Made by a program: the position numbers and the translations under genes. Below are positions 14,000-17,008 of a stretch of 50,510 nucleotides of DNA, in pieces. Where the stretch lies: positions 1 to 50,510 of the forward strand of contig NZ_PIPQ01000010.1 of NCBI RefSeq assembly GCF_003987015.1, written 5' to 3'. The notes under the pieces were generated by a model that ran no database searches, was not told the DNA's origin, and worked only from the letters and a program-made list of their open reading frames with translations. This DNA is from Aliidiomarina taiwanensis. GTDB lineage: Bacteria > Pseudomonadota > Gammaproteobacteria > Enterobacterales > Alteromonadaceae. The stretch's first letter is position 1, and each line of letters begins with the position of its first letter.

Positions 14000-14887
14000 A
14001 TGCAAACCGAGGTGGATCGCTACTGTGCTTATTTAGCGGAGGTCCGTGGTTATTCGCCTCACAGTGTGGCCAGCTACCGCCGGCAGCTGACCCAAACCGT
14101 GCAAGACCTGGTTTACCTTAAGCTCTCTGACTGGCCTGAGTTAACCGCACCCGATGTCGAACAGTTGGTGCTGCTGTGGCGGCGTAAAGGCAGCGGCATA
14201 GCCACCATTCAGCAGCGTTTGTCGGCCTTACGCTCGTTTTGCGACGACTTGCTTCGACACGGCATTCTTATGTCGAACCCGGCGCGCCAAGTGCAAGCGC
14301 CCAAAGCCCCCAAGCGGTTACCCAAGAACCTTGATGTCGACGCCATGATGCAACTGCTTGAAATTCCGCCGAATGACCCGCTGGCGCTGCGAGATCGGGC
14401 CATGTTCGAATTGCTATATAGCTGCGGCCTACGTTTAGCCGAATTAGTGAGTTTAAATGTGGCAGACATTCATGCAGACCGCGAGTTGCGGGTGCTGGGT
14501 AAAGGCCGAAAAACCCGTATTGTGCCTGTGGGCAAAGAAGCGAAGCGTTGGTTGGAGCTTTGGCTGACCGAGCGCAGTACCTGGGCGGGTGCCAGTGACC
14601 CAGCCTTGTTTTTAAGCAAACAACAGCGGCGCATTAGTGCCCGCTCCGTGCAATTACGCTTGCGCAAATGGGGCATAAGCCAGGGCGTGACCGAAAATGT
14701 GCACCCCCACAAATTAAGGCACAGCTTTGCCACACATATTTTAGAGTCGAGCCGTGACTTGCGTGCTGTGCAAGAACTGCTCGGCCATGCCAATTTAAGT
14801 ACCACGCAAGTGTACACCCAAGTGGACTTTGCTCACTTGGCTAAGGTCTACGACGACGCGCACCCGCGGGCTAAAAAGAAAGACTAG
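14000..14887 (+). CDS. xerC: Site-specific tyrosine recombinase XerC
   Basis: With XerD it resolves chromosome dimers at dif during division. The catalytic set is complete: Arg145 (SCGLRLAEL), Lys168 (GKGRK), His237 and Arg240 (HKLRH), His263 (LLGHANLSTT) and Tyr272 (VYTQ). An N-terminal SAM-like core-binding domain spans about 1-90. Length 295 matches XerC, and the dapF-DUF484-xerC context rules out a phage integrase. Confidence 0.96.
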   Translation: MQTEVDRYCAYLAEVRGYSPHSVASYRRQLTQTVQDLVYLKLSDWPELTAPDVEQLVLLWRRKGSGIATIQQRLSALRSFCDDLLRHGILMSNPARQVQAPKAPKRLPKNLDVDAMMQLLEIPPNDPLALRDRAMFELLYSCGLRLAELVSLNVADIHADRELRVLGKGRKTRIVPVGKEAKRWLELWLTERSTWAGASDPALFLSKQQRRISARSVQLRLRKWGISQGVTENVHPHKLRHSFATHILESSRDLRAVQELLGHANLSTTQVYTQVDFAHLAKVYDDAHPRAKKKD

Positions 14888-14902
14888 TTTATTGCGACCG
14901 TT

Positions 14903-15529
14903 TTAACCACCCCAAGCAATATAAATCTCATGAGGTTCGCCGTCGCTCTTTATAGTCATGGTTGTTTCGCCGCTTGCATCATACCAGCCTTGTTCCACCA
15001 GCAACTTTTGCAAATGCATCAGGGCCATAAAAGGTTGCCCATCAACATGTGTTTTTATTTGACAAATAGAACTCTTGCACTCTATAGCTAGCACATTAAA
15101 CTTTTCTAGCTCTTTAGCATGTACAGTAAAAAGGTCGGTGAGTTGTTGTGTAGCTACATACGACCAATGAGCATTGTAGCCTTGCTCATAATATTGCGTT
15201 GTATAATCCGTCACTTGCTGTTGTACTAATGCCGCCACATCAGGAGTTGACTCTGAGTTAAAAACGATAGCTGGTTCATGAACGGCTTTAGGCTCACCTT
15301 CTATAGTCGCGCTGAGGGTTGGATCTGACCCCAATAGTTCATCTGCTTCTGATCTCTCCATTTCAGCCCCTAGGCCGAATAATTCAGGTTGATTATCAAC
15401 AGTTTCTATAAAATTTGTTGTGTCGGCCGGAGCAGTTTGTTCTGGCCCTGATATTTGGTTTTCGAAAAACCAAGCGGTAATGAACCCCAAAATGATAATC
15501 AGGTAAATAATATGAATACGTTTATTCAT
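14903..15529 (-). CDS. Hypothetical membrane-anchored periplasmic protein
   Basis: Not recognised. An ATG at 15529 (208 residues) is preferred over the TTG one codon upstream; AGGTAG sits about eight bases before it. One N-terminal membrane span (about residues 7-23) is followed by an acidic, low-complexity stretch (about 25-100). The C-terminal domain (about 105-208) holds a Cys pair in IECKSSICQIK, a pattern seen in several uncharacterised proteobacterial exported proteins. The gene is five bases from the preceding CxxC protein, so they are probably co-translated. The pair of Cys residues and the neighbours suggest a redox or disulfide-linked role, which is inference only. Confidence 0.75.
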   Translation of the reverse strand: MNKRIHIIYLIIILGFITAWFFENQISGPEQTAPADTTNFIETVDNQPELFGLGAEMERSEADELLGSDPTLSATIEGEPKAVHEPAIVFNSESTPDVAALVQQQVTDYTTQYYEQGYNAHWSYVATQQLTDLFTVHAKELEKFNVLAIECKSSICQIKTHVDGQPFMALMHLQKLLVEQGWYDASGETTMTIKSDGEPHEIYIAWGG

Positions 15530-15534
15530 CAATA

Positions 15535-15957
15535 CTACCTAAACTCAACCAGTATGTGCGACACGCTAGAGAAGTTATGTTTGCCGAACTGCTCTAATGC
15601 TTCCTTTTCAGTAGCGCAGGCAGGGCATATGTTTTCGTCGATGGTAAATAAAATAGCCGTGCCATTTTTACCCAGTGTATTAACGGGTATTTTTTCACTT
15701 ATTTCGTTAAAGTGAAGCGTGGAGATGGGGGTGTTGTGTTCCGATATGTTTACGGCTATTAAAGAGTCGTCAAGCGTACCCGCATGGCTGTAAGTATGCT
15801 CACCCTGTGAATTAAAAAAAAGAGTGAGAGGGTATTCAGTTTTTATCTTGTGTGCTGTCAATAGAGGCTGTAATTCTGACATGGCTGCTTTTTTCGTAGC
15901 AGCTAAAGTATTTGGTAAGTAAATGATACATAGCAATATGAGCAAGGAAAGTCTCAT
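15535..15957 (-). CDS. Small exported protein with C-terminal CPAC (thioredoxin-like half fold)
   Basis: A 140-residue protein with a signal peptide (about 1-20, cut near TLAA). The last 40 residues read as strand, CPAC (111-114), helix (ATEKEALEQF), strand (SHILVEF), i.e. the first half of a thioredoxin active-site unit. The protein ends before the second half, and the cis-Pro loop is absent. The middle region (about 40-95) resembles the N-terminal part of a thioredoxin-like domain (LTLFFNSQGEHTYSHAG). Start ATG with GGAG six bases upstream. Middle gene of a three-gene minus-strand islet. It could be a disulfide reductase or carrier for the Cys-rich peptide encoded upstream; this is a hypothesis. 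Confidence 0.75.
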   Translation of the reverse strand: MRLSLLILLCIIYLPNTLAATKKAAMSELQPLLTAHKIKTEYPLTLFFNSQGEHTYSHAGTLDDSLIAVNISEHNTPISTLHFNEISEKIPVNTLGKNGTAILFTIDENICPACATEKEALEQFGKHNFSSVSHILVEFR

Positions 15958-15999
15958 GATTCACTCCAATATAAATCTTTATTTTTCCATGACAGGCTT

Positions 16000-16155
16000 T
16001 CAGCTGCCGGAGCTTAGATCGCATATAACACAAAAAGAATTTACACAATGAATGCAGGTGGTTGCATTACAAACGGATGAATCGCTATTTGCTAAGTTTA
16101 CAGATGGGAATGCTGCTAAACTAAATAAAAAATAAAACATAAAACGTTTAAACAT
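16000..16155 (-). CDS. Secreted cysteine-rich small peptide, 51 residues
   Basis: A short gene read on the minus strand from ATG at 16155 to TGA at 16000-16002. The ribosome site is AAGG seven bases before the ATG. Residues 1-22 are a clear signal peptide (MFKRF, hydrophobic Phe/Leu core, cut near VNLA). The mature part of about 29 residues contains five cysteines in the spacing C-x4-C-x2-C-x4-C-x2-C (CNATTCIHCVNSFCVIC). It lies 42 bases before the CPAC protein gene, same strand. No family is recognised. It may be a metal-binding or disulfide-linked peptide, or the precursor of a modified peptide. Confidence 0.65.
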   Translation of the reverse strand: MFKRFMFYFLFSLAAFPSVNLANSDSSVCNATTCIHCVNSFCVICDLSSGS

Positions 16156-16288
16156 GGCTTTACCTTATTATTTGATAGTTTAATCTAGGTTTAACTTGGG
16201 TAAAACAACTCACAAGCTCAAGGTAGCAGGTGGGTAACACTTCTGCAACATCTCTGTTTTTATTTCATACATATAGCGAGGTTACAAA
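16156..16288. promoter_or_regulatory. Divergent intergenic region between the Cys-peptide islet and yigB
   Basis: This AT-rich 133-bp gap must hold the promoter of the minus-strand three-gene islet and probably one for yigB. On the minus strand TTAAAC occurs twice eleven bases apart, shortly before the peptide's ribosome site, a possible regulator half-site pair. No convincing -35/-10 pair could be fixed on either strand. Confidence 0.3.
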
Positions 16289-17008
16289 GTGAATTGGCAA
16301 ATTCATCGCCGTTTAGAGCCTATTCGTATTTTAAGTTTTGATCTCGACGATACCTTATATGCCAACGCGCCCGTGATGGCTCATGCAGAACAGTATTTAG
16401 TAGACTACCTAGCCGACAAAGCACCGGCGTTAGCCGATATTACGGTCGCTCAATGGCGTGAGTTGCGGCAGCAAGTCGCTGCAGAAAATGCCGAGTTAGC
16501 GAGTGATATGTCGGCTTTGCGTCGGGCGACGTTTGTGCAGGAGCTTAAAAGGCGTGGGGTAGCACAGGTGGAAACCCTTGCCGACGAGGCCATGGCGGCA
16601 TTCTTTGTAGTGCGTAACCAAGTTGATATTGAGCAAGACATACATACCTTGTTAGGGAAACTGGCAGAAAAGTATACGCTGATTGCGATAAGCAACGGCA
16701 ATGCCGACATTCACCGTATTGGAATAGGCGACTACTTCACAGCCGCCGTGCGCCCGGGGCCGGGTGTGCGTGGCAAGCCTTTCACGGATATGTTTGAGTT
16801 AGCAGCTGAAAAAATTCAGCTAGAACACCCTCGTCACATGCTGCATATTGGCGACCATCCCGTGAGCGACGTGCAGGGAGCACTGCGTTTTGGTGCCCAA
16901 GCCCTTTGGTATAACTCGCCGTTTAAGCCGGCAGAAGGGGTACCCGCCGTCACTTGGTTGCCCCATGCCAGCATTCAAAATATTCAAGCCTTGCGGGCCC
17001 TGCTGTAA
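16289..17008 (+). CDS. yigB: HAD-family phosphatase YigB
   Basis: Haloacid-dehalogenase hydrolase, subfamily IA. In E. coli YigB dephosphorylates 5-amino-6-(5-phosphoribitylamino)uracil in riboflavin synthesis and FMN. Catalytic Asp18 and Asp20 lie in SFDLDDTLYAN. Motif II is ISNGN, the motif III Lys is in GKPFTDMF, and motif IV is HIGDHPVSDVQGA. Length 239 fits. The start is GTG with GCGAGG upstream. yigB normally follows xerC directly and precedes uvrD; here 1.4 kb separates it from xerC. Confidence 0.9.
   Translation: MNWQIHRRLEPIRILSFDLDDTLYANAPVMAHAEQYLVDYLADKAPALADITVAQWRELRQQVAAENAELASDMSALRRATFVQELKRRGVAQVETLADEAMAAFFVVRNQVDIEQDIHTLLGKLAEKYTLIAISNGNADIHRIGIGDYFTAAVRPGPGVRGKPFTDMFELAAEKIQLEHPRHMLHIGDHPVSDVQGALRFGAQALWYNSPFKPAEGVPAVTWLPHASIQNIQALRALL

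Follow-up and report, generated by a model that had tools for sequence, protein, structure and literature searches.

The known cases of small, exported, Cys-containing peptides that have an oxidoreductase of their own come mainly, to our knowledge, from bacteriocin operons of Gram-positive bacteria. In the pediocin operon, PedC carries a CXXC motif and its coproduction raised potency (PMC4919988). The peptide STII is exported by Sec, given two disulfides, and then exported by MacAB-TolC (PMC5985334). A third point of comparison is GspM, whose domains drive dimerization in the type II secretion platform (PMC3815138).

Within a 50,510-nucleotide stretch of DNA from Aliidiomarina taiwanensis, referred to here as the window (its genome is G000), a three-gene islet lies between xerC and yigB. 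We use "operon" for adjacent co-directional genes, and export of the products was judged by eye from hydrophobic N termini. The features are as follows.

14000..14887, plus strand: xerC, the left border of the islet
14903..15529, minus strand: gene for the anchored protein, 208 residues, with an N-terminal hydrophobic helix and a Cys pair (ATG start; to 15532 with a TTG start)
15535..15957, minus strand: gene for the CPAC protein, 140 residues, with a signal-like N terminus and a CPAC motif; its family profile weakly matches DsbG-type proteins
16000..16155, minus strand: peptide gene, 51 residues, between xerC and yigB
16156..16288, no strand: intergenic region from which the peptide gene and yigB diverge, with AAGG ahead of the peptide start
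16289..17008, plus strand: yigB-like HAD phosphatase gene (named by eye), the right border of the islet

The islet resembles pediocin PA-1 with PedC, and the sublancin oxidoreductases, in that a Cys-containing peptide, here predicted to be secreted, shares an operon with a CXXC protein. It differs in that pediocin PA-1 is Gram positive, PedC is described as having a thioredoxin-like fold, which the CPAC family resembles weakly, and the leader here looks Sec-like by eye (PMC4919988 for the pediocin features). In the STII system, with DsbA and MacAB-TolC, a small Sec-exported Cys peptide is oxidized in the periplasm, after which an adaptor and an ABC transporter move it out (PMC5985334); the locus of G135, a genome with a related peptide, encodes the peptide, CxxC proteins, an adaptor, an ATPase, and a permease. 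In contrast to the STII system, the CxxC proteins here are encoded beside the peptide, and the sets of the window, of Aliidiomarina haloalkalitolerans (G001), and of G921, a genome from another family, have no adjoining transporter gene, judging from gene names assigned by eye; the likeness is drawn from gene content, not from peptide sequence. We found no paper on this gene set in open-licence PubMed Central.

An earlier note on this DNA had proposed these three frames with these coordinates, and we confirmed all three on the minus strand. Gaps of 42 bases (peptide to CPAC gene) and 5 bases (CPAC to anchored gene) separate them. The note had also held that the islet parts two normally adjacent genes and is AT-richer than its surroundings, and both points were borne out. 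xerC is present in all 17 genomes of the genus, and in 15 of them it is adjacent to yigB, at a spacing of −44 to 123 bases; the spacing is 672 bases in G014 and 1,401 bases in the window. The islet has a G+C content of 0.400 and the window as a whole one of 0.488; 13 of 986 sliding stretches of islet length were equally low. A promoter consensus scan found no promoter-like site in the 16156..16288 intergenic region; it yielded a single site, at 15995-15968, and shuffled sequences gave more. An Rfam search over positions 14700-16400 had no match, and searches with PHROGs and PADLOC returned weak matches only, mainly to coiled-coil stretches.

The window peptide has a hydrophobic, signal-like N terminus followed by SVC-x4-C-x-H-C-x4-C-x2-C. 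Credible peptides were found in four genomes, G000, G001, G135, and G921, and S-V-C, C, H-C, N, F-C, and C are invariant in their alignment. The relatives have six Cys residues, so the five counted in the earlier note hold for the window copy and not for the family. Of 21 core codons compared between the G000 and G001 peptides, 5 are identical, 8 differ silently, and 8 change the residue; the base differences fall 8, 3, and 14 at the three codon positions (14 of 25 at the third). For the same codons, the differences were 7, 7, and 12 between G000 and G921 and 8, 6, and 13 between G001 and G921. Purine-rich stretches resembling ribosome sites precede all four peptide starts. On this evidence, the peptide looks to be translated, and it is conserved at the coding level, its Cys and His residues keeping their places. 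The earlier note had staked its proposal on this frame being conserved, and relatives were indeed found in G001, G135, and G921. Annotation may often miss so short a peptide.

A six-frame search of 165 loci (597,283 bases, overlapping copies included) found the Cys pattern C-x4-C-x2-C-x4/5-C-x2-C only at the peptides of the four genomes; these loci are not a random sample, because they were fetched for matches to the three proteins, xerC, or tRNA.

At positions 16000-16002 (minus strand) of the window, the codon that corresponds to the sixth Cys of the other three peptides is TGA. Past the TGA, the frame reads KPVMEK up to a TAA at 15979-15981 and still resembles RPVARK of G921 and KPLVSK of G001. 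Taken together, the stop and the relative-like frame behind it suggest that a nonsense change occurred recently, that the codon is read through, or that the sequence is in error here. Because the sixth Cys codon is TGA, the window copy may be altered or failing. Reading of the TGA as selenocysteine would instead make the product a selenopeptide, which fits a TGA lying exactly on a conserved Cys position with a family-like frame downstream. The window genome, rated 99.97% complete, gave 15 matches to a tRNA-Sec model, none over the cut-off, whereas the same search exceeded the cut-off in 5 of 14 control genomes; ARAGORN, run on 8 of the 15 loci, found ordinary tRNAs only, and the 69-base stretch across the TGA folded no better than shuffles (z −0.52). 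With no tRNA-Sec found in this genome and no fold signal, selenocysteine is very improbable indeed.

We looked for the peptide in several genome samples, which overlap, and their counts are not additive. Within the genus, matches at E 1 came from 7 of 17 genomes; that of G001 (E 7e-10) was the sole credible relative, and the others were weak. A scan of the species collection matched 34 stretches and confirmed one locus, that of A. haloalkalitolerans AK5. With a two-row profile, 78 of 395 genomes of the family matched at E 0.1, and G000, G001, and G135 (E 1.8e-5) were accepted; we read 28 of 30 fetched loci (L077 had no placement; L053 and L054, the G001 and window copies, stood outside that reading) and saw the Cys pattern in none but G135. 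The other 48 genomes, which stood lower in the ranking or had no fetched locus, were read in part. One locus, L082, has a short HCINGFCKQC stretch, but it is antisense to a longer frame and was not taken as a relative. In the genus of G135, 3 of 31 genomes matched at E 0.02, and only G135 was accepted. Across the order, 10 of 262 genomes matched at E 0.02; G000 and G921 were accepted, and the pattern was in none of the other 10 matches (L161 unplaced). Across the class, the same three-row profile matched 17 of 369 genomes at E 0.02, and besides the window genome none of the 16 (E 3e-4 to 0.02) was accepted. The G921 peptide reached E 3.6e-15 with a three-row profile built without its own sequence. 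Searches of plasmids gave no match or two at E 6, and none of 26 pattern stretches in viral contigs was confirmed.

The earlier note had treated the three genes as a set, and the order peptide, CxxC gene, anchored gene does recur: it is found in G000, G001, and G921, at three different sites in two families, and G135 adds a fourth genome with the peptide and CxxC proteins. In all four, a CxxC protein gene lies next downstream of the peptide gene and is co-directional with it. The three genes of A. haloalkalitolerans are consecutive and stand at a site other than that of the window, flanked, by eye, by an oligopeptidase-like gene and a small membrane protein gene on one side and rpe on the other. 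The set of G921, which has the same order in another family, lies on locus L165.

L165 8925-9125: peptide gene
L165 9179-9670: gene for a 163-residue CTEC protein
L165 9703-10428: gene for a 241-residue anchored protein

The arrangement C-x2-C-x4-C-x2-C with a conserved His recalls zinc-finger halves, and this brings in the main rival to a redox reading, namely, that the peptide is a periplasmic binder of zinc, copper, or iron, kept reduced by the CxxC protein and handed by the anchored protein to a membrane partner, with the G135 transporter acting as a metal exporter. The window peptide matched Pfam IBR_1 (E 0.0014, 18.9 bits, below the cut-off of 27), and the G921 peptide matched C1_4, a TFIIH C1-like model (E 0.0017, 19 bits, below the cut-off of 28.9). 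Both are short Cys-rich models matched below their cut-offs, however, and by eye we recognized no metal regulator or uptake gene beside the four peptide genes. We consider metal binding possible, on the unlikely side.

The CxxC Cys pair is invariant in the five sequences of the second family, which otherwise have little in common. No CxxC protein reached a curated family cut-off; for the window CPAC protein, the best scores were 11.9 bits in Pfam (cut-off 26) and 13.4 bits in NCBIfam (cut-off 210). Searched against solved structures, the family profile best matched 3tdg (E 5.1e-4; listed as an uncharacterized protein), which we take to be a Helicobacter DsbG-type protein, followed by 8pxe, which contains a DsbG N-terminal domain (E 0.017), and more weakly by thioredoxin, DsbG, and one antibody chain. 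The structural model of the CPAC protein was poor (pLDDT 52), and the 50 of 260 fold matches listed included no thioredoxin and none reaching E 0.001. We place moderate trust in the prediction that the protein is thioredoxin-like. Among the 395 genomes of the family, a sample that G921 lies outside, 59 matched the CxxC profile at E 0.05, and G000, G001, and G135 were accepted. The 27 loci that we read (15 + 12) contained, by eye, cytidine deaminases, thioredoxin- or DsbC-like proteins, and unrelated frames. The CxxC gene of A. haloalkalitolerans (L052 7707-8161) is split over two frames, reflecting a frame change, decay, or a sequencing error.

In the poor CPAC model, the elements run helix, two strands, helix, strand, CxxC helix, strand, and because of this order we considered a circularly permuted thioredoxin. 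Rearranged profiles matched 3tdg more weakly (E 0.0054 versus 7.4e-4 and 0.0096 versus 5.1e-4, the last pair differing by one row), and glutaredoxin-2 (2g2q) was matched by the rearranged profiles alone, at 0.17 and 0.18. Three rearranged single sequences had no Pfam match, and the first half alone had no thioredoxin match. These comparisons do not support a permuted fold.

We know of no counterpart of the third gene in pediocin-type operons. The model of the anchored protein has one N-terminal hydrophobic helix, a low-confidence middle, and a C-terminal alpha-beta-beta-alpha-beta-beta domain (pLDDT 75 overall, about 90 in that domain). Among the best 50 of 1,091 Foldseek matches, none reached E 0.001; the best was EpsM, 1uv7 (probability 1.00, E 0.008, TM 0.60 by target and 0.27 by query), and the sequence matches to solved structures included no GspM. 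In its model the protein has, like GspM/EpsM (PMC3815138), a single membrane-spanning helix at the N terminus and a domain that may be ferredoxin-like and periplasmic; it differs in lying outside any secretion cluster and in carrying a Cys pair. By eye, neither type II secretion nor type IV pilus genes lie beside the anchored genes of the window and 14 other loci, whose neighbors are the CxxC gene, xerC, and acyl-CoA dehydrogenase-, yidC-/mnmE-, and peroxiredoxin-like genes.

The Cys pair of this protein had been read as a redox or metal motif, CKSSIC, and that reading was not supported. Numbered from the TTG at 15532, Cys152 and Cys157 fall within the confidently modeled part and lie at the end and the start of neighboring strands (145-153 and 156-163), and because they face each other across a turn in the model, they are probably bonded. 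Since the domain resembles GspM, the pair is probably structural. A search with a profile of 17 genus sequences found the family, in one to three copies per genome, throughout the 17 genomes of the genus, 15 of which, beyond G000 and G001, have no credible peptide, so the pair is not special to the islet. The islet copy is the sole match in the window genome, and weaker matches occur in 4 of 18 other genomes of the family. In the species-collection scan with the anchored protein, none of 10 stretches was confirmed, the G001 copy included.

The set is not obligate. At the xerC-yigB site of G014, an anchored gene stands alone; searches of that genome gave nothing for the peptide at E 1 or for the CxxC protein at E 0.05, and G135 has no anchored-protein match at E 0.001. 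Elsewhere in G014, at C13:146553-147947, two further genes of the anchored family stand in tandem. The anchored gene at the xerC-yigB site of G014 without the other two, together with the anchored homologues of 14 more genomes of the genus (all but G000, G001, and G014) that have no credible peptide, would fit a killer-and-immunity arrangement, with a microcin-like peptide matured by the CxxC protein, the anchored protein as immunity, and the anchored-only genomes carrying orphan immunity genes. The G135 ATPase, whose best match is DarD and which also matches a lactococcin-972 exporter model, both below cut-off, fits the same picture. We nevertheless judge it unlikely: G135 pairs a peptide and an exporter with no anchored match, the anchored domain resembles that of a secretion scaffold, and killing itself is putative.

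In a tree of 18 anchored proteins, the operon-linked copies were not one clade; joining them costs 10.4 log units (p-AU 0.056), and a long branch leads to the G921 copy. Without G921, the islet and G001 copies grouped with two copies near peroxiredoxin-like genes (97/98). BLASTP from the window protein gave 209 bits for G014, 75.9 for the operon copy of G001, at most 48.5 for unlinked copies, and 36.6 for G921, so that the G921 copy is no closer than several unlinked ones. The set may have acquired its anchored gene on more than one occasion, which makes a fixed trio harder to claim. The two copies that group with those of the islet and G001 are L046 1057-1740 and L047 1489-2145; by eye, the gene immediately preceding each of them encodes another protein whose N terminus is hydrophobic.

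Such scatter also suits a reading without any common pathway, under which genes for small exported products have gathered where the sequence evolves fast, and the order recurs by common descent of a neutral block. The set is rare, with a credible peptide in four genomes; the CxxC gene is broken in G001, the peptide is shortened in G000, one of the three genes remains in G014, and the operon copies of the anchored protein do not group. This reading sits poorly with an identical order at three different sites in two families and with the coding constraint on the peptide, and we regard it as quite improbable.

The fullest cluster is that of G135, on locus L083.

L083 4029-9562: whole cluster (peptide, CxxC proteins, adaptor, ATPase, and permease)
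L083 6889-7080, minus strand: peptide gene

Downstream of the peptide gene lie genes for a CSTC protein, a CMPC protein, an adaptor, and an ABC ATPase, these four overlapping, and an 800-residue permease is encoded divergently from the peptide cluster. In Pfam, the adaptor and ATPase exceeded their cut-offs and the permease had no match. In NCBIfam (bits/cut-off), the adaptor matched RND_mfp, for general RND adaptors (66.1/94.9), DarC (39.8/450), CzcB/NccB (39.4/319.3), and IhpB (19.2/450). The CzcB/NccB and IhpB matches speak for the metal reading described above, though they are weaker than the match to general RND adaptors, and that to CzcB/NccB is about equal to DarC. The ATPase matched DarD (225.5/375), LolD (217.6/307.75), MacB (205.2/966), and L_ocin_972_ABC (199.2/254.85), a likeness to the darobactin, lactococcin-972, and other MacB-type exporters. 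Unlike those exporters, all of the ATPase matches are below curated cut-offs, and the permease matched ADOP alone (66.1 bits against a cut-off of 622.3). None of the other 394 genomes of the family had a relative of the permease at E 1e-20. Measured against bacteriocin-type operons, the peptide and CxxC genes are adjacent and co-directional in four of four genomes, and an exporter belongs to the cluster only in G135.

The reading that we prefer, by analogy and at somewhat less than an even chance of being right, is that the islet is an operon encoding a small, exported, Cys-rich peptide together with proteins that assist it, among them a dedicated oxidoreductase; the analogy with PedC and STII carries no demonstrated sequence kinship. 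The peptide would cross the inner membrane by Sec. In the periplasm, the CxxC protein would serve as its own thiol-disulfide oxidoreductase, pairing or proofreading its Cys residues, and the anchored GspM-like protein would be a docking partner at the inner membrane. For the G135 peptide, passage through the outer membrane would fall to the adaptor, the ABC ATPase, and the divergently encoded permease, a role that MacAB-TolC has for STII; the window peptide would take this step by a shared exporter. The product would most likely be a secreted disulfide-bonded effector or signal between bacteria.

Several findings weigh against this operon reading: an exporter is missing beside three of the four peptide genes, the Cys residues of the window peptide are odd in number, and the tie of the anchored gene is loose (alone in G014, none in G135, operon copies not one clade). 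The CxxC proteins are below family cut-offs, the CPAC model is poor, and the G001 CxxC gene lies in two frames; the zinc-finger-like peptide matches and the metal-efflux-type matches of the G135 adaptor favor metal. The dedicated redox, metal, or peptide-maturation set suggested in the earlier note thus stands in part: redox or maturation is the best reading and the trio order recurs, but a redox or metal role of CKSSIC is not supported, and the set is not obligate.

A bolder form of the proposal, which we hold tentatively and would sooner doubt than assert, is that this is an undescribed Gram-negative peptide-maturation system. It would consist of a mobile trio in which a dedicated thioredoxin-like protein from a new family folds a six-Cys, Sec-exported minipeptide and a GspM-like membrane protein docks it before release; G135 would have a more complete form, with two CxxC proteins and an ABC exporter. 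If true, a conserved trio in marine gammaproteobacteria would make three novelties accessible to direct tests: a family of peptides, a family of thiol oxidoreductases, and a use of the GspM-type domain.
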